Program-made: the position numbers and the translations under genes | Shown: positions 1,292 through 59,429 of the stretch, in pieces | How the letters are laid out: each line of letters starts with the position of its first letter | How positions within the stretch are numbered: the first letter of the stretch is position 1 | Notes under the pieces: generated by a model | Told to the model about the DNA's origin: nothing | The model's input: only the letters and a program-made list of their open reading frames with translations | Database searches by the model: none | NCBI RefSeq assembly: GCF_020085105.1 | Contig: NC_058052.1 | Location: 8,417,733-8,481,732 of the forward strand | Origin: Siniperca chuatsi | Lineage: Eukaryota; Chordata; Actinopteri; Centrarchiformes; Sinipercidae | Direction: 5' to 3' | Length of the DNA: 64,000 nt

Positions 1292-1351
1292 CTTTTATAA
1301 GAAGAAGCAGATGAACAGGTGGCAGCAGGTGGAGTTCCCCCCCCCACCAAT
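1292..1351 (-). promoter_or_regulatory. atoh7: atoh7 proximal promoter: TATA box, two CCACCTG E-boxes, CCAAT
   Basis: On the minus strand, TATAAAAG lies at 1299-1292. Two identical CCACCTG E-boxes lie at 1322-1316 and 1332-1326, exactly 10 bp apart. A plus-strand CCAAT is at 1347-1351. CCACCTG is the E-box form reported for Ath5 autoregulation and Ath5 targets, so this is probably the autoregulatory core promoter. Confidence 0.75.
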
Positions 1352-1410
1352 CCTCAATATTACTCATAGAGAAACACACCCATGCGGACTCATAAACACC
1401 CACACCCACT

Positions 1411-20507: not shown

Positions 20508-20617
20508 GCTGTGGAAATAATCACAAGGTATTCAATTACATTCGACACACAAATCAAGTATTTGTGTTGAAAAATATTCCAACACATACCATAGGTTTTT
20601 AGAGTGATTTCCTACTA

Positions 20618-39677: not shown

Positions 39678-39827
39678 ATAATGCATCATATTATAAAGGG
39701 ATCATATAATCGGATGTTATGTTGCCGATCCAAATTAAATGAACTTTAGAAAATGTAATATGCTACATCAGCTCTCAGCACTGCAGCCGCAACGTTTCGT
39801 CACTAGATGCCGCTGTGCGTGCTCAGA

Positions 39828-39835
39828 TGACGTCA
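39828..39835 (+). promoter_or_regulatory. ATF/CRE site of 7SL copy 1
   Basis: Consensus TGACGTCA at -50 to -43 relative to the 7SL start. A similarly placed ATF/CREB site drives RNA polymerase III transcription of the human 7SL gene. Confidence 0.8.
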
Positions 39836-39877
39836 CGTTTGCAGAAGCTAAAAGCCCGATGAGTGCAGCAGTCTCTC

Positions 39878-40175
39878 GCCGGGTGCGGTGGCGCGCGCCT
39901 GTAATCCAAGCTACCGGGAGGCTGAGGCTGGCGGATCGTTTGAGCTCAGGAGCTCTGAGCTGCAGCGGACTATGCCGATCGGGTGTCCGCACTAAGTTCG
40001 GTATCGATATGGTGCTCCTAGGGGAGCCCGGGACCACCAGGTCGTCTAAGGAGGTGCACCGGCCCAGGTCGGAAACGGAGCAGGTCAAAGCCCCCGTGCC
40101 GCTCAGTAGTGGGATCGCGCCTGTGAATAGACGCTGTAGTGCAGCCTGAGTAATACAGCGGGACCCAGTCTTTTT
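39878..40175 (+). ncRNA. rn7sl: 7SL (signal recognition particle) RNA, copy 1
   Basis: RNA scaffold of the cytosolic signal recognition particle. The sequence begins GCCGGGTGCGGTGGCGCGCG (Alu domain and internal A-box region) and continues with the complete S domain: GATCGGGTGTCCGCACTAAG, the helix 6 GGAG loop area, and the SRP54-binding helix 8 with GGAA loop (GTCGGAAACGGAGCAGGTCA). It returns through GTGGGATCGCGCCTGTGAAT to GCAGCCTGAG and ends in T5. Presence of the S domain distinguishes it from Alu-like SINEs. This copy lacks 2 nt (AGGAGGTGCACC instead of AGGAGGGGTGCACC), making it 298 nt including terminator. Confidence 0.95.
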
Positions 40176-41757
40176 ACACTCCTACTGCTGTTCAGCCCAC
40201 CGCTGTGACGACACACACGCTCAACAACTGTGTCTTTACACCTTACCACTGCTGCTTTGTTTTCTTGTTGCCCTGAAAAACCTTCACAAACCACTTGCGT
40301 TTGTTTGTCCTACAGCGCCTCCACCTGGAGGAGAGCAGCAATGACCATCAATCACAGCAGGCAATGCAGCGCCACAGATACAGGAAGCTCACAGGGGTTT
40401 CTTTCACTGGTTGAATTTAGTTGACCGGGAGAAGAAATTCCTCCAGGAATGATAATCAGACACACAGAACATCAGGACTGCAAACATTTAACACTGTCTC
40501 TCTGTCTTTTTTCTGTCTTGCCTTTAAGGTTGGAACAGCCCTCCTGTTAACAACAATTCACAGCCTATGCAGAACTGGTACCTCTTCCATTCACATAGTT
40601 AGGCTATGTTTCTGCCCTGAGGTCACACCAGAAAGGCTCGTGATACTCAGAGGAGCACCAGAGGGTGACTAGAGGAAAGACCTGTGCCTCTGCTGTGACA
40701 TCAGGGCAGTTGAATATAAAAAATCTCATATTAAAAAGGACTGTGTGCCAACCTCCTTTTTTGCAAAGTGTTGTGTTTTGCACTTCGAGGCAACCACTTT
40801 AAAGCTCTGAAGTTCATGGATTGAACAGAAAAGCTGACTGTTTGTCCATTTCTCATTTGCATACTGTATGTCACATATTTATTGTACTGAATGATCATCT
40901 TCTGCTGTAGCTGTGGTTCCAAACTGGTCTGTGGGACCCTGCTGTTAGTTTTCATTCTTTTCATCTAGTTTTCAGCATCAGTCCAGAGGCCCACAGGTGT
41001 TTTCTCTTTTAGTTAACCGGGTTTGCAGAAAAAGCAGTCCCTACTGGATGGCTAGGAGGAAACACCAAGCAGAAACCACATGCAAAAATGACAATTATAC
41101 AATGCTGCATTTCCATAGTGTCAGGAAATCGCCTGCAACTCTAGATGTAACCAGCTCACTATGACTGCTTTTTTTCTTTTGACCAACCCTCCCTTGATAA
41201 AGCTGATTCACCAACAAAATGCACTATAAGGTTGCCTGTGTAGACAAATGTGCAAAGTTCGAAGTCAGTCGAAACCTTGGTGACAAGCAGGATAATGTGG
41301 GCCTGGTGAGGCCATTTAGCCATTGAATAACAACCATTTATGAAGTCTTAAGTCTTTTATTAAAATGTTATTAAATGAGCCTCTAGCTGGGCTGTTGTGG
41401 TAAAAATCCCAGTCATGACTTCATGAGAGGTTTGTCACTAGTATATTATTATTGTTAAGCAAATACTTGTTATATAATGTGTATTACACTCTAAAATGTT
41501 AACATTGCTTACTGTTTTGTCAAGTTTGAAACATACTGACATTTAGTAGCTTCTATCAAGCCTGTTTAGAGTCTTATTGCTAAATCCTTGGTATAGTTCA
41601 ATCACTAATAATGCGTCATATTATAAAGGGATCATATAATCGGATGTTATGTTGCCGATCCAAATTAAATGAACTTTAGAAAATGTAATATGCTACATCA
41701 GCTCTCAGCACTGCAGCCGCAACGTTTCGTCGCTAGATGCCGCTGTGCGTGCTCCGA

Positions 41758-41765
41758 TGACGTCA
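41758..41765 (+). promoter_or_regulatory. ATF/CRE site of 7SL copy 2
   Basis: Perfect TGACGTCA at -50. Confidence 0.8.
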
Positions 41766-41807
41766 CGTTTGCAGAAGCTAAAAGCCCGATGAGTGCAGCA
41801 GTCTCTC

Positions 41808-42107
41808 GCCGGGTGCGGTGGCGCGCGCCTGTAATCCAAGCTACCGGGAGGCTGAGGCTGGCGGATCGTTTGAGCTCAGGAGCTCTGAGCTGCAGCGGAC
41901 TATGCCGATCGGGTGTCCGCACTAAGTTCGGTATCGATATGGTGCTCCTAGGGGAGCCCGGGACCACCAGGTCGTCTAAGGAGGGGTGCACCGGCCCAGG
42001 TCGGAAACGGAGCAGGTCAAAGCCCCCGTGCCGCTCAGTAGTGGGATCGCGCCTGTGAATAGACGCTGTAGTGCAGCCTGAGTAATACAGCGGGACCCAG
42101 TCTTTTT
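41808..42107 (+). ncRNA. rn7sl: 7SL RNA, copy 2
   Basis: Full-length 300-nt copy including a T5 terminator. It has the intact AGGAGGGGTGCACC segment, matching the human AAGGAGGGGTG context, and the consensus CRE at -50, so it looks functional. It is identical over the gene to copy 3 as read. Confidence 0.96.
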
Positions 42108-43687
42108 ACACTCCTACTGCTGTTCAGCCCACCGCTGTGACGACACACACGCTCAACAACTGTGTCTTTACACCTTACCACTGCTGCTTTGTTTTCTTGT
42201 TGCCCTGAAAAACCTTCACAAACCACTTGCGTTTGTTTGTCCTACAGCGCCTCCACCTGGAGGAGAGCAGCAATGACCATCAATCACAGCAGGCAATGCA
42301 GCGCCACAGATACAGGAAGCTCACAGGGGTTTCTTTCACTGGTTGAATTTAGTTGACCGGGAGAAGAAATTCCTCCAGGAATGATAATCAGACACACAGA
42401 ACATCAGGACTGCAAACATTTAACACTGTCTCTCTGTCTTTTTTCTGTCTTGCCTTTAAGGTTGGAACAGCCCTCCTGTTAACAACAATTCACAGCCTAT
42501 GCAGAACTGGTACCTCTTCCATTCACATAGTTAGGCTATGTTTCTGCCCTGAGGTCACACCAGAAAGGCTCGTGATACTCAGAGGAGCACCAGAGGGTGA
42601 CTAGAGGAAAGACCTGTGCCTCTGCTGTGACATCAGGGCAGTTGAATATAAAAAATCTCATATTAAAAAGGACTGTGTGCCAACCTCCTTTTTTGCAAAG
42701 TGTTGTGTTTTGCACTTCGAGGCAACCACTTTAAAGCTCTGAAGTTCATGGATTGAACAGAAAAGCTGACTGTTTGTCCATTTCTCATTTGCATACTGTA
42801 TGTCACATATTTATTGTACTGAATGATCATCTTCTGCTGTAGCTGTGGTTCCAAACTGGTCTGTGGGACACTGCTGTTAGTTTTCATTCTTTTCATCTAG
42901 TTTTCAGCATCAGTCCAGAGGCCCACAGGTGTTTTCTCTTTTAGTTAACCGGGTTTGCAGAAAAAGCAGTCCCTACTGGATGGCTAGGAGGAAACACCAA
43001 GCAGAAACCACATGCAAAATGACAATTATACAATGCTGCATTTCCATAGTGTCAGGAAATCGCCTGCAACTCTAGATGTAACCAGCTCACTATGACTGCT
43101 TTTTTCTTTTGACCAACCCTCCCTTGATAAAGCTGATTCACCAACAAAATGCACTATAAGGTTGCCTGTGTAGACAAATGTGCAAAGTTCGAAGTCAGTC
43201 GAAACCTTGGTGACAAGCAGGATAATGTGGGCCTGGTGAGGCCATTTAGCCATTGAATAACAACCATTTATGAAGTCTTAAGTCTTTTATTAAAATGTTA
43301 TTAAATGAGCCTCTAGCTGGGCTGTTGTGGTAAAAATCCCAGTCATGACTTCATGAGAGGTTTGTCACTAGTATATTATTATTGTTAAGCAAATACTTGT
43401 TATATAATGTGTATTACACTCTAAAATGTTAACATTGCTTACTGTTTTGTCAAGTTTGAAACATACTGACATTTAGTAGCTTCTATCAAGCCTGTTTAGA
43501 GTCTTATTGCTAAATCCTTGGTATAGTTCAATCACTAATAATGCGTCATATTATAAAGGGATCATATAATCGGATGTTATGTTGCCGATCCAAATTAAAT
43601 GAACTTTAGAAAATGTAATATGCTACATCAGCTCTCAGCACTGCAGCCGCAACGTTTCGTCGCTAGATGCCGCTGTGCGTGCTCCGA

Positions 43688-43695
43688 TGACGTCA
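43688..43695 (+). promoter_or_regulatory. ATF/CRE site of 7SL copy 3
   Basis: Perfect TGACGTCA at -50. Confidence 0.8.
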
Positions 43696-43737
43696 CGTTT
43701 GCAGAAGCTAAAAGCCCGATGAGTGCAGCAGTCTCTC

Positions 43738-44037
43738 GCCGGGTGCGGTGGCGCGCGCCTGTAATCCAAGCTACCGGGAGGCTGAGGCTGGCGGATCGTT
43801 TGAGCTCAGGAGCTCTGAGCTGCAGCGGACTATGCCGATCGGGTGTCCGCACTAAGTTCGGTATCGATATGGTGCTCCTAGGGGAGCCCGGGACCACCAG
43901 GTCGTCTAAGGAGGGGTGCACCGGCCCAGGTCGGAAACGGAGCAGGTCAAAGCCCCCGTGCCGCTCAGTAGTGGGATCGCGCCTGTGAATAGACGCTGTA
44001 GTGCAGCCTGAGTAATACAGCGGGACCCAGTCTTTTT
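43738..44037 (+). ncRNA. rn7sl: 7SL RNA, copy 3
   Basis: Full-length 300-nt copy with T5 terminator, in the third unit. The 3' flank matches copies 1 and 2 until 44304, where it changes abruptly to a segment with an L2 LINE fragment that leads into copy 4. The flank has one fewer A (CCTGAAAACC) than copies 1, 2 and 4. Confidence 0.96.
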
Positions 44038-44519
44038 ACACTCCTACTGCTGTTCAGCCCACCGCTGTGACGACACACACGCTCAACAACTGTGTCTTTA
44101 CACCTTACCACTGCTGCTTTGTTTTCTTGTTGCCCTGAAAACCTTCACAAACCACTTGCGTTTGTTTGTCCTACAGCGCCTCCACCTGGAGGAGAGCAGC
44201 AATGACCATCAATCACAGCAGGCAATGCAGCGCCACAGATACAGGAAGCTCACAGGGGTTTCTTTCACTGGTTGAATTTAGTTGACCGGGAGAAGAAATT
44301 CCTCCGTACTCTTTATAATATTATTTACAGAGACCCAACAAATCCCACCATGAGCAAGCATTTGGCAACAGTGGCAAGGAAAAACTTCCTTTAAGAGGCA
44401 GAAACCTTGGACAGAACCAGACTCAATGGTGGGGGGCCATCCACCGCTGCCGTGTTAGGTTTGGAGAGAGAGAGAGAGAGGTCTGGAGAGAGTCGGATAA
44501 TAATGAAATACAATATTTG

Positions 44520-44725
44520 TTAAAAAGTAACAAATGCATGCAATAGTTTGTCGGCATCATTTTGATTCAGGATGGGCCTGATTTTTGCAATGTTGCATAG
44601 GTGACAGAAGGCAGTCCTTGAAGTTTGTTTCATGTGGGAGTTAAAGGATAAATCCTGATCAAAGATAACTCTGAGGTTCCTTAAGGTGGTGCTGGAGGCC
44701 AGGGCAATGCCATCTAGAGCAACTA
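44520..44725 (-). mobile_element. L2/Rex-like LINE reverse-transcriptase fragment (first copy)
   Basis: The minus strand encodes NLRVIFDQDLSFNSH, TRTAFCHLCNIAKIRPILN and DADKLLHAFVTF with a few changes, the well-known C-terminal RT segment of fish L2-type LINEs. It is a short fragment between 7SL copies 3 and 4. The flanking stretch (about 44330-44450, with GGCAAGGAAAAACTTCC) is another dispersed fish repeat. Confidence 0.75.
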
Positions 44726-44734
44726 GTAATAATA

Positions 44735-44905
44735 GCACAGTGTAAAAATACTCTGTTACAAGAAAAAGCTCTGCAATCAAAATATCACTTAAGTAAAAGT
44801 ACATACGTATTAGCAGAAAAATGTCCTTAAAGTATCAAAAGTAAAACTACAAATTCCAACTACTTATAATAATAATGCATCATATTATAAAGGGATCATA
44901 TAATC
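44735..44905 (+). mobile_element. AAGTAAAAGTAC-family MITE fragment upstream of 7SL copy 4
   Basis: Contains CACTTAAGTAAAAGTACATA and TTAGCAGAAAAATGTCCTTA, the body of the fish MITE also seen at 2700-3332. It runs straight into the shortened 5' flank of copy 4. Confidence 0.6.
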
Positions 44906-44920
44906 ATGCTGTGCTGCCTA

Positions 44921-44928
44921 TCACGTCA
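44921..44928 (+). promoter_or_regulatory. Variant CRE of 7SL copy 4
   Basis: TCACGTCA at -50: one base differs from consensus because the upstream flank was replaced right up to this site. Confidence 0.65.
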
Positions 44929-44970
44929 CGTTTGCAGAAGCTAAAAGCCCGATGAGTGCAGCAGTCTCTC

Positions 44971-45269
44971 GCCGGGTGCGGTGGCGCGCGCCTGTAATCC
45001 AAGCTACCGGGAGGCTGAGGCTGGCGGATCGTTTGAGCTCAGGAGCTCTGAGCTGCAGCGGACTATGCCGATCGGGTGTCCGCACTAAGTTCGGTATCGA
45101 TATGGTGCTCCTAGGGGAGCCCGGGACCACCAGGTCGTCTAAGGAGGGGTGCACCGGCCCAGGTCGGAAACGGAGCAGGTCAAAGCCCCCGTGCCGCTCA
45201 GTAGTGGGATCGCGCCTGTGAATAGACGCTGTAGTGCAGCCTGAGTAATACAGCGGGACCCAGTCTTTT
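44971..45269 (+). ncRNA. rn7sl: 7SL RNA, copy 4
   Basis: Full-length gene body with intact AGGAGGGGTGCACC segment. The terminator is T4 rather than T5. The roughly 140-bp distal 5' flank found in copies 1-3 is absent, and the CRE is altered at its second base. The 3' flank matches copies 1-3 up to about 45617. Confidence 0.94.
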
Positions 45270-45617
45270 ACACTCCTACTGCTGTTCAGCCCACCGCTGT
45301 GACGACACACACGCTCAACAACTGTGTCTTTACACCTTACCACTGCTGCTTTGTTTTCTTGTTGCCCTGAAAAACCTTCACAAACCACTTGCGTTTGTTT
45401 GTCCTACAGCGCCTCCACCTGGAGGAGAGCAGCAATGACCATCAATCACAGCAGGCAATGCAGCGCCACAGATACAGGAAGCTCACAGGGGTTTCTTTCA
45501 CTGGTTGAATTAAGTTGACCGGGAGAAGAAATTCCTCCAGGAATGATAATCAGACACACAGAACATCAGGACTGCAAACATTTAACACTGTCTCTCTGTC
45601 TTTTTTCTGTCCAGTAA

Positions 45618-46709
45618 AATAATTCATCATGTTAGGTATGCATGATGACCTGATGAAATGTCACCAACACAAGGATAGATGTAGGCAGAATGCTCCATTT
45701 CTCTCAGATAAATACAATTTAGCTCCTTATATTGTATCATGCCCATGCAGTCATGGTCACCTCCACCTCCTGACCTCTCTGCATGTTTATGTACCTACTT
45801 CCCATCAAGTACCGAGCACACAGCAGAATTCACATGATAGCTTCATTGTTTTCCCTCACACCCACTCAGAGCTGAGCAATGTAGAAATATGGATAAAACA
45901 TATTTAGCCACGTATAATATATATATTATTATATAATATATTAAACAATATAGCCCAGGTTCTTAAGCAAAATGGCGTTAAAATGTTTCAAATTTAAGGC
46001 AAAGTTTTGGCCCATTTTCCACCGTACAAAAGATAAACAAGTGAACAATTTAATGGAAAAAATAACAAGAAATATTTTAATTAAAAGTATAATAATCCAA
46101 AGTCATTATTTGACTCCAAAGTTAGATCAATTTAAATGATGAATATTGAGGAAAAACATAATATTTATAACAATGTTTAAACTGTACAACCACACCAACA
46201 GATGGAAAGCCATTGTAAAAACGAAAAGGTATAATATAATATAATTCTTACACCTTTTCTCCTCTGTCCTGCTGTGTTCAATGTTGTAAATATAGTGTTA
46301 ACTGTAGAGAAACGTAGAAATATCTATGGAAAAATCCATTCAGATTCAGATACAATTATTATTATTTTTATTATTATTTAATATTTTGCAACAAACAGAA
46401 GGAAAGGAGGGTTGAGGATTTTTGAGGATGAGGGAAATTTAAAAGAAGTTATTGCCCAAAAGTTACATACAATGTCTCAGAAGGCTACAGGCCCTCTGAG
46501 ACATTGTATGTCCAGCCCACGCTCTCTAAGAAGACAAGGAAAACTCCCCAAAAGGGAAGAAACCTTGGGGGAGGCAATTCAAAGAGAGATCCCCTCTCCA
46601 CAGATGGCTGGAAGAGCAATAAGAGATGGAAAATAGGGATGGGGTAGCGGGAGCTAGGGATAGGTGGTGGGAGTTGGGGGTTAGCCTGTAGGATGAATTC
46701 TCCTCCACT
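45618..46709. other. AT-rich spacer between 7SL copy 4 and coiled-coil gene
   Basis: No gene seen. It includes a hairpin (annotated separately) and a dispersed fish motif at about 46530-46610 (AAGGAAAACTCCCCAAAAGG, related to that at 44380). Confidence 0.5.
46465..46511. repeat. Perfect 17-bp inverted repeat (hairpin)
   Basis: Arms 46465-46481 and 46495-46511 are perfect reverse complements (ACATACAATGTCTCAGA and its complement) around a 13-nt loop. It lies about 200 bp beyond the stop codon of the minus-strand coiled-coil frame and abuts a dispersed repeat. Confidence 0.9.
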
Positions 46710-48512
46710 TCACTTGAATAACTGGAGGAATCTTCTCCTCAGAGAGGGTCTTTTAGGCTTTTTGTCGATCTTTTTCATCTGCTGTTCTAGGTCGACAATC
46801 TTGTCCGTCATCCCATCCCATCTTGTCTTCTGAGCTTTCTCCTCCTCCTGCAGGGTGTGGTGGATGTCGCTGAGGGACTGGAGGAGACGGGACCGCTCCT
46901 CCTGCCACTGCAGCTGTTGACTCTCCAGCTCTCTCTGTGTCAGGGTCAGCGCAGCCGTCAGTCTGTTGTTTTCCTCTGTTTGCTGGGCCAGGCACACGTC
47001 CAGTTCTTTCCGGCTCTCCTTTTGCCTCTGAAGGTGTTTCTCCATCTGCTGCAGCTTCTGGAGAGCCTCAGCTTCAGTGGTCTTCGTCGCTAAAAGCTGA
47101 AGCTCCAGGTCCATGATCTTGTTCACCCTCTTCAGCATAATGTCATCATGGAGAGCGTTGTTTCTTTGGAGCGTTTCCTTTAACTGCTCCATCTCAGCTG
47201 CTAAAGCTCCATTCTCCTTCTTGAGCTTGGTGGTCTGCTCTGTCTTTCTGCTTCTGAGCTGCTGAAGCTCGAGCTCAGAGACGTAAATTCTGGCCTCCTG
47301 GGGGGAAGCCTCTACCCCATCACAGGCCTTGGCCGGCGTTTCTTGTAACTGCTCCAGCAGAGCTGCTAAAGCCTCGTTTGCCCTCTCGAGCTCGGTGGTC
47401 TGCTCCGTCTCTCTACTCCTGAGCTGCTGTGGCTCGAGCTCAGGAACGTGAATCGTGGCCTGCTGGGGGAAAGCCTCAACCCCATCACAAGCCTTGACCC
47501 TGTCTGCCTGCTGTGGTTTGGCAGGTGCACACTGAGGGGTGTGGTGGCGTGGTGCTGTGCAAAGCTGTTGGACAGGACCCCTTTTAAAATCAGTGGTTTT
47601 AACCCGGGTGTGGTAGGGTGGTGGAGGTGTCCAAAGCTTTTTCTGTTGGACAGGGCCCCTTTTAAAATCAGTGGTTTTAACCCGGGTGTGGTAGGGTGGT
47701 GGAGGTGTCCAAAGCTTTTTCTGTTGGACAGGACCCCTTTTAAAATCAGTGGTTTTATCCTGGGTACGGTACGGTGGTGGTGGTGTCCAAAGCTTTTTCC
47801 TCTGGACAGGGCCCCTTGTCAATTCAGTCTGCTGTGTAGCACCTGAAGGTGTACCCACTTGTTGTGGTACACCCTCAGGTGCAGCAGCCTGCTGTGGAGC
47901 ACCTTCTGGTATAGCAGCCTTCTGTGGAGCACCTTCTGGTGCAGCAGCCTTCTGTGGAGCACCTGTGGGTGTAGCAGCCTTCTGTGGAGCATCTTCGGGT
48001 GTAGCAGCCTGCTGTGGAGCATCTTCTGGTGCAGCAGCCTGCTGTGGAGCACCTTCTGGTGCAGCAGCCTTCTGTGGAGCACCTCTGGGTGTAGCAGCCT
48101 GCTGTGGAGCACCTTCTGGTGCAGCAGCCTTCTGTGGAGCACCTGTGGGTGTAGCAGCCTGCTGTGGAGCATCTTCGGGTGCAGCAGCCTGCTGTGGAGC
48201 ATCCTCAGGTTGCCTTTGGAGGATGCAAAATTTGGGCACTGTCTCCGACTGTGTGCAGTTTAGGTCCCCTTTCCCTGCCTGGCCCTTTTTGCGGACACCC
48301 TGACGGGTTGGGGCCTTGACAGACTGCTGATGTTTAGCAGTCTCTGGAGGGTTAACCTGTGCAGACATAGCTGCCTCGTTCTGCCTGCGGAGAGTGGAAA
48401 TCCTTTTATTCCAGGAACCAAAGGTGATTGATACCTCCTCTGCTGGCTGGATAAAGTTTTCCTTCACTTTGTTCTTGCCTTTTTTTCTTTGTTTGTCTTT
48501 GGTTTTCTCCAT
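46710..48512 (-). CDS. Intronless repeat-rich coiled-coil protein, not recognised
   Basis: A 600-codon uninterrupted frame starting MEKTKDKQRKKGKNKVKENF. Residues about 1-100 are basic. Residues about 102-231 are 13 tandem decapeptides of the type PEGAPQQAAA / PEDAPQKAAT. Residues about 232-330 carry three and a half 26-residue units with RGPVQQKKLWTPPPPYHTR. Residues about 370-590 are a strongly charged Glu/Gln/Lys/Leu region with coiled-coil character, with an internal duplication (KACDGVEAFPQQA and KACDGVEASPQEA). The end is basic (RRRFLQLFK). No catalytic motif, signal peptide or membrane segment. Lack of introns, mobile-rich surroundings and clean internal repeats suggest a retrocopy or a young lineage-specific gene. 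The coiled-coil part argues against a chance frame, since length and codon periodicity are kept outside the repeats. Function unknown. Confidence 0.65.
   Translation of the reverse strand: MEKTKDKQRKKGKNKVKENFIQPAEEVSITFGSWNKRISTLRRQNEAAMSAQVNPPETAKHQQSVKAPTRQGVRKKGQAGKGDLNCTQSETVPKFCILQRQPEDAPQQAAAPEDAPQQAATPTGAPQKAAAPEGAPQQAATPRGAPQKAAAPEGAPQQAAAPEDAPQQAATPEDAPQKAATPTGAPQKAAAPEGAPQKAAIPEGAPQQAAAPEGVPQQVGTPSGATQQTELTRGPVQRKKLWTPPPPYRTQDKTTDFKRGPVQQKKLWTPPPPYHTRVKTTDFKRGPVQQKKLWTPPPPYHTRVKTTDFKRGPVQQLCTAPRHHTPQCAPAKPQQADRVKACDGVEAFPQQATIHVPELEPQQLRSRETEQTTELERANEALAALLEQLQETPAKACDGVEASPQEARIYVSELELQQLRSRKTEQTTKLKKENGALAAEMEQLKETLQRNNALHDDIMLKRVNKIMDLELQLLATKTTEAEALQKLQQMEKHLQRQKESRKELDVCLAQQTEENNRLTAALTLTQRELESQQLQWQEERSRLLQSLSDIHHTLQEEEKAQKTRWDGMTDKIVDLEQQMKKIDKKPKRPSLRRRFLQLFK
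47540..47819. repeat. 78-bp coding tandem repeat (about 3.5 units)
   Basis: Period 78 bp measured from equivalent bases at 47583, 47661 and 47739. It encodes the 26-residue WTPPPPY units. The two central units are nearly identical, indicating recent unequal exchange. Confidence 0.93.
47820..48209. repeat. 30-bp coding minisatellite (13 units)
   Basis: Plus-strand unit resembles GCAGCAGCCTGCTGTGGAGC plus 10 bases, repeated 13 times with small differences. Because 30 is a multiple of 3, all frames stay open on both strands, giving spurious antisense frames. Confidence 0.95.
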
Positions 48513-48769
48513 CGTGAAAACTTGACGCTTTCTGTTTGCTGTCGATCTCTGTGTCTTTGTATTTGTGACTGGTCTGACAGTTTGTGGGAGTCTTGTAGAC
48601 TGAAGATTCTAGAATGTGTCTCTGATGATGTATCATGGGAAATAGAATGGAATGTTTCTCTTTTATGTTTTTCATTTATTTTTAAATGTTTACCATGGCA
48701 ACCATGTGAGAATCTGAGAATCATTTAACAGAGTTTGTGTTCAGAATCACATGCTAACGTACTATTCAT

Positions 48770-48975
48770 ACTAGTATGACGTCAAATTGAATATGTATTG
48801 CGTTTCCAACCATAAAAGAAGTGGATGTAGTCACCGTGACGTCACCCAGCGGTTTGCTGACTACTGTTTTGAAGCCTTGAGATTGGCATTTTGGCCATCG
48901 CCATCTTGGTTTTTGCAACCAGTGAACGGATATGACCATATTTGGAGGAGGGGGTGGAGCCGGGGAACATAGCAA
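48770..48975 (+). mobile_element. Dispersed non-coding fish repeat
   Basis: Contains CCGTGACGTCACCCAGCGG, TTTGAAGCCTTGAGATTGGC and CATTTTGGCCATCGCCATCT, a combination that recurs widely in teleost genomes. A CRE-like TGACGTCA occurs here by virtue of the repeat and is unrelated to 7SL. Confidence 0.5.
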
Positions 48976-48992
48976 TCGCTAAGTTCGCTACT

Positions 48993-51900
48993 TTAACCAA
49001 AACCATTGAATAAAGTTAGAAAGTTGTGTTTTACAGTAAGGCCTGCCACACAAAAACAACATAGCCAAAGTGCATTCTTAGATTTACAAAAATTCAAAGA
49101 CTCTTTTAAAGATGACATATCATGAATAAAAACATTAAATAAAGGTTTAATGTTGCCAAATTTACATTTATGAATGAAAACAATTGCCATAACAATCATA
49201 CTATTAATTGTTAAATCTTTTGATTTGTCCTCCAGTACAACGCCAAATTTAACATCATTGTAATCGAAAGATCGGACACCCAAGTTGTCTTGATAAGCCC
49301 AAATACAGAAACTATCCCAAAATATCTTTGAATAAACACATGAGAAAAAGAGATGCTCATCTGTTTCAATGTTAGCTAAACAAAAGGTACAAACATTGTC
49401 CTCAATATTAAATTTTGAATGTAAAAATTCTTTGCATGGGTAAACATTATTTAACAATTTGAAACGTACCTCTTTAGCTTTTGGTGGGAAAGGAAGTTTT
49501 AAATAGTTACATCTAAACTTTTGTATATTTTGACTGGTGAAACCCTCCATAATATTTCGTCTTCTTAAAGGCAAAGGAAAACATTCATTAGACAATACGG
49601 ATCTTAAGAACTTGTAACATTTTTTGTCTAAAAAGGAAATGTTTTGAATAGTTAAGGGAAACAGTTGTGGAACAGAGTGTGTGTACATCAAGAAACCTTT
49701 AACAGAACCAATGATTGCTTGTGGAATCGCATTGATGACTTGTGTAAATTGTTGATTAGAACAAATAATATTATATTTGTGAATGTCTGAATAGTTAAGT
49801 AAATTACCCCTGTCATCCAGTAAATGTAAAACCAGCATTACACCCTGTTCAGCCCAGTGTTTGTAAAAGAAGGATTTTTTTCTAATCAGTATATACCTGT
49901 TATTCCATAAAGGTGTATCATGGGGCGAAAAATTATGATTATAAATTAATTTCCAATACTGGAGAACTTGTCCATGAAACTTAGACAAATTAATGGGTAA
50001 TTTGGATAACTCAAAATCACATTTAATAAGAAATTCGACACCACCAAAACTAGAGAATATTTTAGCGGGGAGATTGAACCAGAAACTGTCTAGATTTGTT
50101 ATAAAATTTTGTAACCACCGTAATTTGGGTCGAAATCAATGGCATTTAGGCCGCCTTCTTCTAAAGATTTAACAATATCATTTTTCCTTATATAATGATG
50201 CTTATTTTTCCAGAGAAAACTGAAGTTATTTTGATTGATTTGTTTGATCACTTTTTGAGGTATGTTTAGGGAATATGCTGGATAAATAAGTCTCGAGAGA
50301 CCCTCCATTTTAGAGAGTAGTAATCTTCCAAAAATAGATAGTTCTCTCTGCAACCACATGTTCAGAATTGCTTTACTCTTCTTTAAAACACCATCAAAAT
50401 TATACTTCTCTCTATCTATTTCACTTTTCGTTACAATAATACCTAAATATTTGACTTGATCCTTGACAGGTATACCATATAACGGTATTTGCGGGTGATC
50501 GTGGATGGCCATCAGCTCACATTTACCCACATTTAGATAAAGACCAGATGCTTCTGAGAAACGAGCAACAACTTGCAGAGCTATTGGTATTTGAGTCTTG
50601 TTTTTCAAAAACAGCGTGGTATCGTCCGCTAACTGACTTATCGCAAGTGGATATCCCAAAACATCTACTTTCTTTAATTCTTCACGTTTTTATCATCTTC
50701 GATATTGTCACTATAGTCCAATAAATCAAAAACAAGCCTAATATTGTCATGGATTGACCGACCTCTGAGAAAACCAGACTGAGATTCACTGATAATTTGC
50801 GAGATACCTACCTTAAGCCTATTTGCAACGGCATGAGTCAACAATTTATAATCTACATTAAGTAGTGTTATCGGTCTTAGATTGTCCAAATATTTCTTAT
50901 CCTTTCCAGTTTTTGGAATAAGTGATATGAGCCCTTGTTTCATAGTAGTCATCAGAGTTTTGTTTTTGATACTTTCTGTTATGGCAAGGAAGAACAAATC
51001 CTTAAGATCCTCCCAAAAGTGCTTATAAAAGTCAGAAGAGAGTCCATCCTGCCCGGGAGACTTCCCAAGAGGCAGCTGTTTAACAGCATTGTCCAGTTCA
51101 AACATTTCACTGTCTGAGTCACACAAGTCCTTAAAGTCTGAGCTGATGGAGGGAATGTGATGTTTAATACTTTCCAAAAGTGATAAATCTCTGCCTCAGT
51201 CAGAAGGAGTGTATAAGTCGTTGTAGAATCTGTAGACCTCCTCGGGGATTAATTTTGGATCTGTGCATTCAGAGCCATTTATCATCAGTGTGTTAATATT
51301 TCTCTCCTGTCTCCTCTTCTCAAGACCGCAGAAATAAGCTGTATTACGTTCACCTTCTTCGATCTATTTCGCCCTCAACCTTATGAAAGCTCCCCCTGCT
51401 CTTCTGGTACTTAATTCGTCCAATTGGGTTTTTAGATTGATGAAAGTAGCTTTATCTGAATCCAACATGGGGATCCTTTTGCAATAATCATCCAAATCCT
51501 GTATTGGTTTAAGTTCTTGTTCTCTCAGGGTTCTGGCCCTTTGTTTTCCAAATTGTATTGAGATCTGCCTAACCCTAAACTTAAAAAATTCCCATCTGCT
51601 GCAATAGTTACCAATTGACGTATCATATTTGATATTTAACTTAAGCTCCTTTATTATGTTGCAGTATTCCAGACATTTTAGAAAGTCAGCATTAAATTTC
51701 CAACAAACATTTCTCCTATTACCTCTTAGTTCTGGCTCCAATTTAAGAGACAGCAAACAGTGGTCAGTTAAGGGTGCACTGGACATGGCTACCTCCAATA
51801 AAAAAAATTGTTGAATGCTGGGACTGCCAGCCACAAACCAATTCTAGACCTAATACTCCCATTAGGTTTAAGCCAAGAGTATTGTCTAAGATTAGGATAT

Positions 51901-52335
51901 GTATCCCTCCATATATCTATCAAGGAAAAGGTGTTACAAAAATCAAGAAAGGTACCATTGTAATGAGTGTCTGTGAATTTAGTTGGGTATCTATCAAGAT
52001 ATTCATCAGGTGCTAGATTGAAATCTCCTCCAAACAATATTAAATCTGTGTGGTATGAACTTTTATATTGAGAAACAACCTCTGTGATTTCTTGTAACAG
52101 GGCCTTATTTTGATTGGTGTTATTGTAACCATAGACATGTTAAGATCAAGTAAATATTGTCCATATTAATGACAGCTGTCAGCCAGTGACCATTGTCATC
52201 TGACTTATATGAGACTACATTACCCAGGCACTTGTTAAAGCAGATGGCTACTCCTGCAGATCTGTTGCTCCCGTGGACATTGTGCAGAAATCACTGATGT
52301 GGGCATCTACGCACTCCTTACAGGAACCTGGATTC
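48993..52335 (-). mobile_element. Tx1/L1-clade LINE, ORF2 remnant, 5'-truncated
   Basis: Read 52335 to 48993. The APE endonuclease part has GAVAICFNKCLGNVVS-type sequence at about 52260-52140 and GGDFNLAPDEYLDR at about 52030. The reverse transcriptase has LGKSPGQDGLSSDFYKHFW, LISLIPKTGKDKKYLDNLRP, SQSGFLRGRSIHDN and the catalytic LADDTT at about 50630. The C-terminal region with CTFCLANIETDEHLFFSC (Cys/His segment) lies at about 49370. ORF1 is absent. The coding sequence is split into several frames by stops and frame changes (around 52137, 51360, 51180, 50670 and 50010-50100), so it is inactive. The clade is judged from RT motifs and gene order; an L1 sensu stricto is the alternative. Confidence 0.85.
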
Positions 52336-52339
52336 CTCA

Positions 52340-53354
52340 TTGGCCACAACCAGAAAAGCAACGTTAAGGTATCCATTTTTGTATTAACGTGTAGAAATAT
52401 TTCGTGTTAATACTACAAAACTATACATGTTAACATGCATTTTAATGTAGTCTAAACATGAAATCTCTGAGACGTTACTTGCGCAAATGGCTTTCCATGC
52501 AAACAAACACGCCCGCACCGCCGCGCTGTCGTCATGACACAGTAATTACTTAGTGACATTTAAATCAATGAAAAACATGTGGCTATAAATATTATTGTCG
52601 ACGCATTTTCAGCGTCATCGACTACTCGCGGCAGCCCTACTCTTAACCACTGGAGTTTGACTTAGGGACCATCAATAAATTACTGGTTGAATGACACAAA
52701 ACCAACGTTTCTCAATGGCAGTCCCCCCCCTCCATCGCTTCCATGTCATTCACTGACTCCAAATCAGTACCAAAAAGTATTACTTCACGGTACATGTAGG
52801 ACACATTAGCTTAAATTACAAGTCAGAAAAATCGTTCCTGCAGATCAGCCCATATACAGTTAGCCAGATTATGATAAAATGTAGCACAAATTCATGCACG
52901 CTTGTGTTCATTTCATGAAAACAGCATACAAGTTTTATCAGTAAAATGTACTCGAAGCATCAAAGGAAAGATCTCATTACACATTATGTTGACAAGGACA
53001 TTATGTACATTGGATGATTGATGTGCAAGCAACATTATACAACTGGAGGTGGTGAGTTTAACCAGCTGTTGGAAAGTAGTTGATTTCATCTACAGGAATT
53101 GTTTGTTGATCATATTTTGTTTTTCATAATTTATGCATCATGTGCAACGTAACTAAGCTGTCAGGTAAGTGCAGTGGAGTACAAAGTAACAAATACTCAA
53201 CTACCCCAAAAGTGTATAGTTCTTGAGTCAATGTACTTATTTCTTTCCACCTCAAAGCATAACACATTACATATCCTAAAGTAGTATTTAGCTTGTCACG
53301 ATTCATTTTATGGTAATCAACCTGCCATCACTGAAATAAAAACAAAGCCTCAAG
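52340..53354. other. Spacer with DNA-transposon remnants
   Basis: About 52600-52642 (GCGTCATCGACTACTCGCGG then CAGCCCTAC) looks like a hAT-type terminal region. About 53165-53260 contains fragments of the AAGTAAAAGTAC family (TTTCTTTCCACCTC). No gene seen. Confidence 0.35.
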
Positions 53355-53740
53355 TCCTTGTGTTGTCAACCTTTTATTTATTGGGGGGGAGAAGAGATGA
53401 TGGGAATGTATTGACAGCTACGAATGCTTCCATTTCCTGGATGACTTGACCATCTTTGAAGCTTGTAGCAGTCCCAAGTTGAAGCACCTGTGAAAGGACA
53501 GGGTTAATTTCTTTCCACCTTGGACTTCAGTGTTACTCATCCTAAAGAACAAGTCTTATAGCCTGTAAGTAAACTCCAAAGCCTCTTTACACGGTCCCAA
53601 TAAATACCAACCTGGTCCCTTCTTTGTGTCTGAATGTTATCCAGCCTGGGCTGCCACAGTCTGACCTGACAAGATAGAAATAGTGATTTCAAGAGTGTTT
53701 GGCATCACCAATTTCTTCAACAGAAACTCCAACTGTCTGA

Positions 53741-53812
53741 GTGTCTCAGTGCGCTGCGAGTAGACATCAGTTAAGATCAGTTGAACCAAATAACTGCATC
53801 ATCATTGACCAA
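53741..53812 (-). ncRNA. Box C/D snoRNA, possibly SNORD48-like
   Basis: Minus strand: C box ATGATGA (53805-53799), an internal CTGA followed by TGATG (D'/C' region, about 53780-53762), and D box CTGA (53749-53746). The guide before D is CTACTCGCAGCGCA; it shares CGCAGCGC with human SNORD48 as I recall that sequence. The terminal stem is short. Class is well supported, identity is not. Confidence 0.6.
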
Positions 53813-54899
53813 ACTCGTTGACACAAGTAATACGGGATAAAAGCCTCATTTGGATGGTCTTGATTCATCAAGAAGGTTGGATAAATTCAATATTACGTGT
53901 TTATCTTTGATTTTGGCCCAGTACAGTCCCAGATCCACTTTTTTGGCACACTCATGACTCCTCCCACAATTAAGTCCTGTCCAGACAGCCTTTTGAAATC
54001 AAAGATTGTCTAAGACCAATGGTGACAGCGATCACATGATTTAAACCCAGACCTCATTGCTGAGCCACATGCTGCACATCCTAATGGGGCTTTACTTCTG
54101 GAGAAGTTGGTACTTACAGCTGTGGAACGGTCACCCAATCTCCTTTCTGTCAATGTGTGGACAAGCTACAAGACAAATTTACATCATGAATACCACAGCA
54201 TGCCAAAACAAGGACAGGTTCAGGGACCACACCAGTGTTCTTTGGCTGTTTTAGCCTATTTACTGCACTCACTTCAAGCTTTGAAAAACTGCTGGTAAGA
54301 GTACTTTTAAGAAACAAAGAAACAGTCCCTATGAAAATTGTCCAATAATGTCCCAGATAACTGGGTGATTAGTTCTTCAAAGTAGTTTACCAATGCTTCA
54401 AAAACCTTAATTCACCTCCATTGTACTGAGGTGGCAGCAGAAATAAGCTGTACTTCTTATAACCAGAGTACATTATATCTAACTTGTCTGCAGGTCTGAT
54501 TATACTAGGGTAAGTTAAAAAGAAAAGAAAAAAGTTTTTGTAATTTAGTAGAGACACCTTTGAGTTAGGTAATCCAATGAATAATATGTCTGCCTATTCT
54601 ATAAAAATTACACTTAAGTGTATGGAGCACCAACTTTAAGCCCATCGGTCCATATTTGTATCACCGCACAATAATAACCGTGCTTTAAAAAAAGCAGACA
54701 TGTAATGATTAACCAACTAAAACAAGTTTCAGGTGTCTCCAAATTGATTTTCATGGTGATGTGGGATTTATTTAAAAAAAAAAAAAAAGCTTGTTGGAGA
54801 TAATAAAAACTACACAGCATGCTTTGAACAATGTCTAGCTGTAAAATGTCTACATGACTTGCAGTAAATGGGTTAAAACATACCATATCACTGGTGTGA

Positions 54900-54978
54900 T
54901 TATGTGGTCAGTGCACTGTGAAAACAACTTCATGATTTTCTCAGAGACTCTAGTCTATGAAATCATCATTCCACATAA
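54900..54978 (-). ncRNA. snord52: Box C/D snoRNA, SNORD52-like copy b
   Basis: A perfect 8-bp terminal stem (TTATGTGG with CCACATAA) encloses C box ATGATGA (54969-54963) and D box CTGA (54911-54908). The D' guide AGACTAGAGTCT precedes CTGA. It is complementary over about 11 nt to the conserved 28S rRNA segment GACUCUAGUCU, the SNORD52 target region. The D guide TTTTCACAGTGCA is shared with copy a. Confidence 0.8.
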
Positions 54979-55125
54979 CAGTATTACAGAACAGAGGCTT
55001 TGAGATGCCAGACTTACCTAGAAGAGCAGTCTCCATCTACTCTCCCTGTACACCTGGTGAGTACCGAGAAAACAGTATTAGAACCAGTTCTACTCTTTGC
55101 AGCTTGTATTGGGAATCAGTAATAT

Positions 55126-55200
55126 GCATGCTCAGTGCACTGTGAAAGAGCTTCATGGCATAATCAGAGACTCTAGTCTTGTGAATCATCATAGTAGCAT
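55126..55200 (-). ncRNA. snord52: Box C/D snoRNA, SNORD52-like copy a
   Basis: C box ATGATGA (55192-55186), D' CTGA (55167-55164), D box CTGA (55135-55132). The guide GACTAGAGTCT before D' and TTTCACAGTGCA before D are the same as in copy b, while the spacer and terminal stem (ATGC/GCAT) differ. It sits in the intron between exons 55369-55250 and 55053-55018. Confidence 0.8.
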
Positions 55201-55837
55201 ATTGGTTTTCACAGAATATCACTCTGTGGCATCACATCCTGACACTCACCATCAGCTCATGGCTGCAGACTCATGGTAGGAATACAGTACTCAGCCTGTT
55301 TTGAAACTGTGTTCCTTCAGTGCTCTGAGAAGCCTGGAGGTGGCCGCTGCATCCATCTTTAGTGTGATCCTGAAACAGTAGAGTGGGTCATTTTCCATTA
55401 CAGTTCATTTTTGTATGTTGTTATAAATATTTAATGTGTGTTAGTTCTGTTTAAGTCTCATGAACACACAGGAAGATCACCGTCACTGTAATCAACACTT
55501 TGATTGCACGCAGATGTTCACAACTGTAGCTACCAACCACACACATTTCACATGTATTTAAAGCCAGCCAATTGTATTTCAACACCATTCAGGCCATCAT
55601 GAAGTCTGAAGATATAATTTAGAGACTTTTCAAAAAGGTAAACATAAAATAAGAAAACAAAACAAATACTAGTGCCTAGTCACATTATTGGGGTGGGATT
55701 GCACTGGGTGACTATTCATAACCTCTGCATTTCTAAGAACTTGCCTGAGGTTGCCGCAAACACCAGTGCCTTTACATGCTATAAAGGAGGTGAGTTCACG
55801 TAGTTCTGTACAGTGACAGCGTGTTTTTACCACAGAC

Positions 55838-56317
55838 TGTATATCAAAAGATGGATGACATAACAGACCCCCCAAAATATCTCGATCGCCCCCTGGTGGC
55901 TGGCTGCAGTATAAGTCAAACACGATCCCCTCCATGTTAGTTGATGGGACAACTAAAAAAAAAAGTCAAAGTACACATCAAATTAATTTTCCTCAAAGAT
56001 AGTTTCTACCAGTGTAGGTAGTTCTTATCACGCTGATGTGTGTTCAACTGTTCGTTGTTTTTTTTCCTGTTTGGTTTTAATTAGTTATTTGATGCTATAA
56101 AAACGGGGTTTCACGTCATTATTGACAGCTGAGCTCTACTCGCGATTGAGTCAGCCGGGTGTATGGGCGGGACCTCGAGACAACTCCGATCACTACTGCG
56201 CAGACTCTGATTACAAATGATATCAAAAGCACAAGATGGCTGCTCCCGTATCCGGGATATTTTGGCTGCATTACTGTCTATGGAGACCACGCGTCGTCCA
56301 TCTATGTATACAGTTTT
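55838..56317. mobile_element. Dispersed non-autonomous DNA element with ACTGTATA ends
   Basis: It begins ACTGTATATCAAAAGATGGA and ends ATCTATGTATACAGT, so the termini are inverted copies (ACTGTATA). The interior (CCCCCTGGTGGCTGGCTGCA, TGGCTGCTCCCGTATCCGGG) is a common teleost repeat without coding capacity. Family not named. Confidence 0.55.
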
Positions 56318-57495
56318 TTTCTTCTTGTTTTGAGCTCAACTAATAATCTGTATAAAAACGTGTATTTTCATATTTATGTAATTTTATCTTGTTTATAATC
56401 ATAATGAATTATGGTACCCATTCTGTCACGCTGTTTTAAGCAAGACTAAGCAATAGTAGTTTCTAGGTGTAATTTATATTAAAATCTGCATCCAGTGAAA
56501 AAACGTTGTGTACTTTCCCAAAACTGCAGTTGCATCTCCTTGCCCAAAATGTCTGTAAATTCCCCTGGTCTAGGAACCACTCACCTTATTCATCCATCTG
56601 GAAACTTGGTTCTCCAGGAGTTCCTTAGACAACCAGTCTTCGACTTGGCAGACTCAACGAGGAGACTCATGCTACAGTCTGTGGGGAGAGCACCGAGCTC
56701 ACTGGTTAAAGTCAGGTTCTTTTCCCTCCATTACAGTGGCCTTATCGCCATACCACGTGCGGAGCATGGAAGAACCACCGCGGACGCTGCTGCTCGTCCA
56801 TTCAGTCCAATGACTACTACATAAGGCTAAAACACCCTTTAGGAAGCCACCCAAAAGCCATTTACTACATCCAACTGCGCAGAGAGCCGCCAACCAGAGG
56901 CTGAACAGCAGTCCGCCCATGGCTTATATACGCGGGTCCTTCACAACACAGCGTGCTTTTGGTGTCCTGAATATTGCCTGTTTCTGACGTTCACCGAAAT
57001 TGATAGGCTACAACAAATTATACAGCAAATAGGCTACCATGAATCAAATGTACATTTTAAGAAAGGGAAAGTTCAGGAACATCTTTAATACATGATGGGC
57101 ATTAATGTATAATTACTATGGATGTATGTTTTTCCTTTAAGGGCACTTAGGTTGGATTGATTTGAACAAATAATAAAGTAAACGACGTGTCATTTGAATT
57201 CATAAAATGTTCATTTAAGTGAATTTCTTATCAATTTTAGTACAATTTCATATTAATAGAATTAAATTGTCGAAAGGGAATACAAACGTTAAAGCTATCT
57301 TTGACTGTTGGTGAATATTGTGAACTTAACTGTACCTGTTATTGACTTACCCGAAAGAGTAAGAAGTAAGAAATTAGTGGTTTGTGGATGTTAGTAAATA
57401 ATACAGAAGAAGCTTTAGGAACATTGTACAAATACTGATCAGCCTTCAACACTGCAGCTGCAAGTCTTTTTGTCAGTCACGCTGAGCGTGCTCTG
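56318..57495. other. Spacer upstream of 7SL copy 5
   Basis: No gene established. 56500-56950 is more GC-rich and has a minus-strand TATATAAG near 56935, which could be the promoter of the snoRNA host gene or of an unknown transcript. The remainder is AT-rich. Confidence 0.35.
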
Positions 57496-57496
57496 A

Positions 57497-57504
57497 TGAC
57501 GTCA
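57497..57504 (+). promoter_or_regulatory. ATF/CRE site of 7SL copy 5
   Basis: Perfect TGACGTCA at -51, conserved although the rest of this copy's 5' flank has diverged from copies 1-3. Confidence 0.8.
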
Positions 57505-57547
57505 TGTTTGTAAAACCCCAAAACCTCTGTGAATGAAGAGCTCTGTC

Positions 57548-57847
57548 GCCGGGTGCGGTGGCGCGCGCCTGTAATCCAAGCTACCGGGAGGCTGAGGCTG
57601 GCGGATCGTTTGAGCTCAGGAGCTCTGAGCTGCAGCGGACTATGCCGATCGGGTGTCCGCACTAAGTTCGGTATCGATATGGTGCTCCTGGGGGAGCCCG
57701 GGACCACCAGGTCGTCTAAGGAGGGGTGCACCGGCCCAGGTCGGAAACGGAGCAGGTCAAAGCCCCCGTGCCGCTCAGTAGTGGGATCGCGCCTGTGAAT
57801 AGACGCTGTAGTGCAGCCTGAGTAATACAGCGGGACCCAGTCTTTTT
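57548..57847 (+). ncRNA. rn7sl: 7SL RNA, copy 5
   Basis: Full-length 300 nt with T5 terminator and intact helix segments; one visible substitution (CTCCTGGGGG for CTCCTAGGGG) near the helix 6 loop. The 5' flank is alignable but clearly diverged from copies 1-3, whereas the 3' flank is nearly identical to copy 3 including the switch into the L2 segment. This copy's body and 3' flank therefore share a recent origin with copy 3. Confidence 0.95.
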
Positions 57848-58330
57848 ACACTCCTACTGCTGTTCAGCCCACCGCTGTGACGACACACACGCTCAACAAC
57901 TGTGTCTTTACACCTTACAACTGCTGCTTTGTTTTCTTGTTGCCCTGAAAAACCTTCACAAACCACTTGCGTTTGTTTGTCCTACAGCGCCTCCACCTGG
58001 AGGAGAGCAGCAATGACCATCAATCACAGCAGGCAATGCAGCGCCACAGATACAGGAAGCTCACAGGGGTTTCTTTCACTGGTTGAATTTAGTTGACCGG
58101 GAGAAGAAATTCCTCCGTACTCTTTATAATATTATTTACAGAGACCCAACAAATCCCACCATGAGCAAGCATTTGGCAACAGTGGCAAGGAAAAACTTCC
58201 TTTAAGAGGCAGAAACCTTGGACAGAACCAGACTCAATGGTGGGGGGCCATCCACCGCTGCCGTGTTAGGTTTGGAGAGAGAGAGAGAGAGGTCTGGAGA
58301 GAGTCGGATAATAATGAAATACAATATTTG

Positions 58331-58536
58331 TTAAAAAGTAACAAATGCATGCAATAGTTTGTCGGCATCATTTTGATTCAGGATGGGCCTGATTTTTGCA
58401 ATGTTGCATAGGTGACAGAAGGCAGTCCTTGAAGTTTGTTTCATGTGGGAGTTAAAGGATAAATCCTGATCAAAGATAACTCTGAGGTTCCTTAAGGTGG
58501 TGCTGGAGGCCAGGGCAATGCCATCTAGAGCAACTA
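58331..58536 (-). mobile_element. L2/Rex-like LINE RT fragment (second copy)
   Basis: Practically identical to the fragment at 44520-44725; carried here by the block duplication and not an independent insertion. Confidence 0.75.
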
Positions 58537-58731
58537 GTAATAATAGCACAGTGTAAAAATACTCTGTTACAAGAAAAAGCTCTGCAATCAAAATATCACT
58601 TAAGTAAAAGTACATACGTATTAGCAGAAAAATGTCCTTAAAGTATCAAAAGTAAAACTACAAATTCCAACTACTTATAATAATAATGCATCATATTATA
58701 AAGGGATCATATAATCATGCTGTGCTGCCTA

Positions 58732-58739
58732 TCACGTCA
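58732..58739 (+). promoter_or_regulatory. Variant CRE of 7SL copy 6
   Basis: TCACGTCA at -50, the same one-base variant as in copy 4. Confidence 0.65.
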
Positions 58740-58781
58740 CGTTTGCAGAAGCTAAAAGCCCGATGAGTGCAGCAGTCTCTC

Positions 58782-59080
58782 GCCGGGTGCGGTGGCGCGC
58801 GCCTGTAATCCAAGCTACCGGGAGGCTGAGGCTGGCGGATCGTTTGAGCTCAGGAGCTCTGAGCTGCAGCGGACTATGCCGATCGGGTGTCCGCACTAAG
58901 TTCGGTATCGATATGGTGCTCCTAGGGGAGCCCGGGACCACCAGGTCGTCTAAGGAGGGTGCACCGGCCCAGGTCGGAAACGGAGCAGGTCAAAGCCCCC
59001 GTGCCGCTCAGTAGTGGGATCGCGCCTGTGAATAGACGCTGTAGTGCAGCCTGAGTAATACAGCGGGACCCAGTCTTTTT
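58782..59080 (+). ncRNA. rn7sl: 7SL RNA, copy 6
   Basis: Near-complete 7SL gene with T5 terminator. It has a 1-nt deletion (AGGAGGGTGCACC) at the same place where copy 1 lost 2 nt, and the variant CRE. The 3' flank carries private changes (ACACGCGCTC, TTTATTTTC) and ends at about 59251, the shortest of the set. Possibly a weak or non-functional copy. Confidence 0.93.
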
Positions 59081-59429
59081 ACACTCCTACTGCTGTTCAG
59101 CCCACCGCTGTGACGACACACGCGCTCAACAACTGTGTCTTTACACCTTACAACTGCTGCTTTATTTTCTTGTTGCCCTGAAAACCTTCACAAACCACTT
59201 GCGTTTGTTTGTCCTACAGCGCCTCCACCTGGAGGAGAGCAGCAATGACCATTTCCGTTTTTTGTTTTTTTTTTACACATCACCTTTCTCATCTGTGTTG
59301 TCTCATTCTACGGACACGTGTTAGTACAACAACTAAATAAACAAAATATTATTGTGATCATTTCTCCATGTCCAACAGACAGCATCACACTGTCTTTGTT
59401 TTAGCTTGTTGTAATGTAACTTGTGTACA

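Follow-up and report, generated by a model that had tools for sequence, protein, structure and literature searches.

A probable local family of six signal recognition particle RNA genes between dnajc12 and cox5b in Siniperca chuatsi

Results

Identification of six SRP RNA genes

The window studied here, a 64-kb stretch of Siniperca chuatsi DNA (contig NC_058052.1, positions 8,417,733 to 8,481,732), carries a cluster of candidate genes for 7SL RNA, the RNA of the signal recognition particle (SRP). An original prediction made from the letters alone had placed six full-length 7SL genes in 39678..59252. Analysis of the whole window with the Rfam metazoan SRP RNA covariance model (RF00017, threshold 70 bits) revealed six complete + strand genes, each matched over positions 1-299 of the 299-position model, with scores of 264.4 to 280.4 bits (E 7.5e-72 to 1.8e-76), and the predicted coordinates proved correct to within one base (Table 1). 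The covariance model scores these loci as full-length SRP RNA and not as truncated short interspersed nuclear elements (SINEs). A search of the whole window with the limit relaxed to E 0.05 listed no seventh SRP match, and ARAGORN found no tRNA. Successive RNA starts lie 1930, 1930, 1233, 12577 and 1234 bp apart, a spacing that supports the clustered, partly tandem arrangement that had been proposed. We consider it very probable that the six loci are true SRP RNA genes forming a local family between dnajc12 and cox5b.

Table 1. Positions of the SRP RNA genes, their upstream elements, the repeated units and the neighboring coding domains in the window
Feature	Position	Strand	Remarks
SRP RNA copy 1	39878..40174	+	RF00017 264.4 bits; 297 nt; helix-8 G-run shorter by 2 nt
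SRP RNA copy 2	41808..42106	+	RF00017 276.6 bits; 299 nt; intact
SRP RNA copy 3	43738..44036	+	RF00017 276.6 bits; 299 nt; intact
SRP RNA copy 4	44971..45269	+	RF00017 276.6 bits; RNA intact; shortened upstream region; T4 terminator
SRP RNA copy 5	57548..57846	+	RF00017 280.4 bits, top score; G143; own diverged promoter
SRP RNA copy 6	58782..59079	+	RF00017 266.6 bits; 298 nt; helix 8 minus 1 nt; shortened upstream region
CRE TGACGTCA, -50 of copy 1	39828..39835	+	perfect
CRE TGACGTCA, -50 of copy 2	41758..41765	+	perfect
CRE TGACGTCA, -50 of copy 3	43688..43695	+	perfect
Changed CRE TCACGTCA, -50 of copy 4	44921..44928	+	one-base change
CRE TGACGTCA, -51 of copy 5	57497..57504	+	perfect
Changed CRE TCACGTCA, -50 of copy 6	58732..58739	+	one-base change
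Copy 5 promoter	57438..57547	+	110 bp; 84/115 columns (73.0%) identical to copy 3 promoter
Tandem unit 1	39677..41606	+	1930 bp
Tandem unit 2	41607..43536	+	1930 bp
Partial third unit	43537..44305	+	769/772 columns identical to unit 2; comparison ran two bases beyond the break
Block of copies 3-4	43738..45442	+	~99.5% identical to the block of copies 5-6
Block of copies 5-6	57548..59252	+	9 differing columns over ~1.7 kb against the block of copies 3-4
Putative last-intron segment of dnajc12	37007..37483	+	477 bp; 474/477 identical to 41026-41502 (unit 1)
HLH (atoh7-like)	619-1353	-	Pfam
I-set Ig (mypn-like)	7535-7819, 14814-15170	-	Pfam
I-set Ig (mypn-like)	19407-20531	-	Pfam, below curated cut-off
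SIR2 (sirt1)	29528-29863, 31915-32157	-	Pfam
DnaJ (dnajc12)	joined exons		Pfam
COX5B (cox5b)	joined exons, 60.2-61.4 kb	+	Pfam
HECT (herc4)	62.8-63.7 kb	-	Pfam

Four distinct RNA sequences are encoded, copies 2, 3 and 4 being identical to one another and copies 1, 5 and 6 each unique. In the alignment, nucleotides 1-142 are the same in all six copies, and each sequence contains TGTAA at +23 in the Alu domain, the helix-6 loop sequence GGAG and GGTCGGAAACGGAGCAGGTC, the core of helix 8; we take these to be the motifs known as the Alu-domain UGUNR, the helix-6 GGAG loop and the helix-8 core. Compared with RF00017, only small copy-specific changes were found, namely A143 in five copies and helix-8 deletions in two. 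The helix-8 G-run, which reads GGGG in copies 2-5, is reduced to GGG in copy 6 and to GG in copy 1, adding one and two non-standard pairs to the model alignment, respectively. The claim that all six RNAs are complete is thus borne out over the full model but has to be qualified by these 1-nt and 2-nt losses. They represent either decay or sequencing error, read error being a live alternative because the deletions sit in a homopolymer.

Position 143 is occupied by G in copy 5 only. In the other five copies the base is A, which faces C and breaks the third pair counted down from the GGAG loop; copy 5 and the Rfam consensus form a standard pair there. Minimum-energy folds of the S domain, computed without a shuffled control, reached -48.1 kcal/mol for copy 5, -42.3 for copies 2-4, -40.7 for copy 6 and -38.5 for copy 1, and the predicted folds of all six contain a one-by-one C.C mismatch elsewhere in helix 6. 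Copy 5 is not part of the tandem series, and a single base gives it the best RNA of the six in model score and in fold energy.

All six genes also gave sub-threshold matches to the mir-1268 family at their 5′ ends (34.9 bits against a gathering score of 83; 39876-39926 in copy 1), which suggests that this microRNA family was built on 7SL/Alu sequence. A conserved 25-base word of the SRP RNA had no match in one scan of viral contigs. An 18-base word was found in eight prokaryotic stretches in one contig scan; no Rfam family reached its gathering score in any of the eight, and they were set aside as chance occurrences.

Tandem units and copied blocks

Three exact 1930-bp tandem units had been described. 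Their spacing is indeed exact, but their sequence is not: units 1 and 2 match at 1924 of 1932 columns, differing by four substitutions and four indel columns. Only part of a third unit is present, and it breaks off at about 44305. Both full units include a 477-bp segment that occurs once outside the array, at 37007-37483, and whose counterpart in unit 2 (42958-43432) is 98.95% identical to it. This outside occurrence would belong to the last intron of dnajc12, because it lies between the stretches read as the last two exons of that gene; the exons were read by eye, without a transcript, the last one as ending ...FRNYEI-stop near 37697. The 1930-bp unit is best described as an SRP RNA gene apparently joined with dnajc12-intron-like sequence, whichever the direction of copying. 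Flank homology extending over hundreds of base pairs is common to the copies. A larger repeat pairs the block of copies 3-4 with that of copies 5-6, where the similarity stops at 59252.

Chimeric structure of copy 5

Copy 5 is a chimera: its RNA and 3′ flank are near-identical to those of copy 3, but its promoter is distinct and more diverged. The two RNAs agree at 298 of 299 positions and the 3′ flanks at 733 of 735, or 99.7% for RNA and 3′ flank. Upstream, the promoters retain a similarity well above that of 50 base-composition shuffles (mean 46.1%, maximum 52.0% for the 110-bp flank), while over the next 200 bp the identity of 52.1% stays within the range of shuffled sequence (mean 49.5, maximum 55.6). 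From the resemblance of these two promoters, the control region would measure about 110 bp. The differences nearest to the junction are located at -3, upstream, and at +143, inside the RNA; since no nearer ones exist on either side, the switch in identity falls between these two positions. This arrangement suggests that sequence was recently copied, through duplication or conversion, into a 7SL gene already equipped with its own promoter. Recent copying is favored over selection on the RNA alone because the 3′ flank is as alike as the RNA itself. The copied block ending at 59252 includes copy 6 along with copy 5.

Upstream elements and terminators

A cyclic AMP response element (CRE) had been predicted at -50/-51 of each gene. 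The element is present as the perfect octamer in four of the six copies (1-3 and 5), but copies 4 and 6 carry the one-base variant. According to an excerpt of PMC7279448, the CRE TGACGTCA lies at -51/-44 in the mammalian consensus or at -50/-43 in human 7SL-1, and the agreement with the positions found here supports the reading of these loci as RNA polymerase III (Pol III) genes. The same excerpt places a mammalian TATA-like box, consensus CTCTAGTA, at -31/-24, and states that substitutions in the CRE and in the TATA-like box cut in vitro human 7SL transcription 2.5-fold and four-fold. The corresponding -31 region is A-rich in Siniperca, GCTAAAAG in five copies (1-4 and 6) and CCCAAAAC in copy 5, and is unlike the mammalian consensus. 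The proposed T4-T5 terminators were recovered: copy 4 ends in T4, the other five copies in T5.

In the two genes with a changed CRE, the upstream region is shortened as well. Ahead of copy 1 lies a stretch with its end at 39711 that recurs upstream of copies 4 and 6, where it ends at 44905 and 58716. From this stretch to the CRE there are 116 bases in copy 1 but just 15 in copies 4 and 6, a difference of about 100. A loss in copies 4 and 6 seems the simpler reading, since the diverged copy 5 can still be aligned with copies 1-3 across this region. By their promoter or RNA, two of the six copies (4 and 6), or three with copy 1 included, seem impaired. Copies 2, 3 and 5 combine a perfect CRE with an intact RNA.

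The space between copies 3 and 4 contains a segment (44306-44770) with GGCAAGGAAAAACTTCCTTTAAGAGGCAGAAACC-like sequence that is also present between copies 5 and 6 (58117-58581); in both places it precedes a gene with a shortened promoter. A somewhat similar stretch was noticed by eye near 46536-46600. The segment may be a mobile-element remnant.

Neighboring genes and intervening elements

Pfam matches at E up to 0.001 were obtained for 4 of 10, 7 of 10 and 2 of 2 stretches submitted in three sets. The domains fall in the places implied by the proposed order atoh7-mypn-sirt1-dnajc12-cox5b-herc4, which is supported at the level of domains, the only level tested; the gene names themselves are those of the original prediction or ones that we presume to apply.

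The interval between copies 4 and 5 holds a LINE-like (long interspersed nuclear element) reverse transcriptase, a repeat-rich 632-codon frame and two SNORD52-like small nucleolar RNAs (snoRNAs). The LINE-like element (48996-51195, - strand) is broken; three consecutive open stretches of it give matches to zf-RVT (PF13966) and reverse transcriptase (PF00078). The 632-codon open frame (46713-48608, - strand) has no Pfam match at E up to 0.001; it contains 30-bp and 78-bp internal repeats encoding APEGAPQQAATP-like and GPVQQKKLWTPPPPY-like peptides, and its C-terminal part appears coiled-coil-like by eye. The SNORD52-like C/D snoRNAs, at 54905-54973 and 55129-55196 on the - strand with starts 224 bp apart, scored 58.3 and 40.2 bits, one on either side of the gathering score of 45. 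Perhaps they occupy introns of a snoRNA host gene situated between the SRP RNA copies.

Discussion

We hold with good confidence that tandem duplication and conversion account for this locus, recent duplication and exchange having presumably kept the family alike. In the order of events that the repeats suggest, a 1930-bp unit holding dnajc12-intron-like sequence would have been repeated in tandem, and a block of about 1.7 kb with two genes would have been copied across 13.8 kb. Homogeneity would be maintained through recent duplication and exchange between copies, of which copy 5 offers the plainest case. Judged from sequence, each copy looks like a self-contained Pol III unit, with a CRE-like site, an A-rich TATA-like region and a T4-T5 terminator; an internal promoter in the Alu domain, as we assume for 7SL genes, would complete it. 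Each copy would then be transcribed by Pol III into the RNA of about 300 nt that scaffolds the signal recognition particle. Copies 2, 3 and 5 are likely to be the main producers within the cluster, copy 4 would be weaker and the contribution of copies 1 and 6 appears doubtful.

Some observations weigh against this account. Every indel between units 1 and 2 lies in a homopolymer, so part of the variation may be read error. Five of the six RNAs carry the helix-6 mismatch relative to the Rfam consensus. The main SRP RNA genes of Siniperca may lie elsewhere in its genome. In the miiuy croaker, according to an excerpt of PMC11893794, the most active gene, 7SL-23 on chromosome 19, is located outside the eight-gene cluster of that species.

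Tandem units that are wholly or partly artefactual, through false expansion or through haplotype copies joined end to end, are improbable in our judgment. The single homopolymer base that separates units 2 and 3 over about 770 bp before the break would suit this explanation, as would the fact that the four indel columns distinguishing unit 1 from unit 2 all fall in homopolymers. Nevertheless, diagnostic substitutions are present, the outer flanks differ (copy 1 versus copies 2/3, copies 4/6 and copy 5), and the block of copies 5-6 stops where that of copies 3-4 continues, a pattern that a simple haplotype join would not produce. Only the count of 1930-bp units is truly at risk from assembly error. 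The view that the copies are 7SL-derived SINEs or retropseudogenes can be rejected almost entirely. A 7SL-derived SINE has a body devoid of the S domain, an A-tail and no upstream elements. The 5′ part of the copies is Alu-like, as in any 7SL gene, and gives the mir-1268 matches, but the S domain is present in all six, as is a CRE-like site near -50; at least 110 bp of alignable promoter remain in copies 1-3 and 5; and the T run is followed by no A-tail. Hundreds of base pairs of 3′ flank are moreover common to the copies, and RNA-mediated copies would not carry such shared non-transcribed flanks, which excludes this origin and agrees with the earlier identification as SRP RNA genes rather than Alu-like SINEs.

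The extra copies could have been retained by selection because the lineage needs more SRP RNA, the lineage-specific dosage expansion that the original prediction had suggested. Identical RNAs in copies 2-4 and the preservation of intact RNA with a perfect CRE in copies 2, 3 and 5 are compatible with such a dosage expansion, as is the croaker, whose eight adjacent 7SL genes are described in an excerpt of PMC11893794 as infection-sensitive, with TFIIIC on one of them, 7SL-16. We nonetheless regard an adaptive expansion as unlikely: recency and exchange explain the identity, since the 3′ flanks match as well as the RNAs; the changed CRE and short upstream regions of copies 4 and 6 fit neutral birth and decay, as does the loss of helix-8 nucleotides in copies 1 and 6; and nothing beyond copy number favors it. 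It is very unlikely, in turn, that the locus encodes two SRP RNA variants, G143 in copy 5 and an amplified A143, that differ in SRP19 binding or regulation. Their distribution (five copies to one), the S-domain fold better by about 6 kcal/mol in copy 5 and promoters merely 73% alike between copies 3 and 5 would speak for two variants. However, the distinction lies in a single substitution, all six folds contain a C.C mismatch in helix 6 anyway, and the base of copy 5 may be older or back-mutated; A.C pairs, besides, are often tolerated. The related reading that the cluster makes two SRP RNA forms under different promoters is equally a long shot. In it, copy 5 would supply a form whose helix 6 is better paired, and the amplified A143 form would have a mismatch near the SRP19-binding loop and, in copies 4 and 6, would have partly escaped control by the CRE; if true, it would provide a vertebrate example of SRP RNA variants with distinct regulation.

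The cluster can be set beside known 7SL systems. An excerpt of PMC7073466 names three human 7SL loci, RN7SL1, RN7SL2 and RN7SL3, which are likewise full-length, and human 7SL also has a CRE near -50 and a TATA-like box (PMC7279448, excerpt). Unlike the human loci, the window holds six copies in 20 kb, three of them at 1930-bp steps, near dnajc12 and cox5b. The arrangement had been called unusual, which is fair in comparison with human but less so given a published fish parallel. In the miiuy croaker, an excerpt of PMC11893794 reports 24 7SL genes, of which 7SL-9 to 7SL-16 are adjacent on chromosome 12 and infection-sensitive, and adds that 7SL copy number differs greatly between vertebrates. 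The likeness between the two fish lies in the adjacency of 7SL genes, and the two clusters may or may not be orthologous. Within the open-licence literature, judged by title and the start of the abstract, PMC11893794 was the only report recognized on fish 7SL clustering. A fish 7SL cluster is therefore already published, and the window is a well-resolved example rather than a new kind. The contribution of the window is its fine structure, with a unit containing apparent dnajc12-intron sequence, a chimeric copy and shortened promoters. SRP RNA is essential, and a cluster that duplicates, exchanges and loses promoter sequence supplies natural variants for studying what is needed of the upstream elements. 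The picture of the SRP itself is unchanged; the cluster bears on what keeps the members of an essential Pol III gene family alike.

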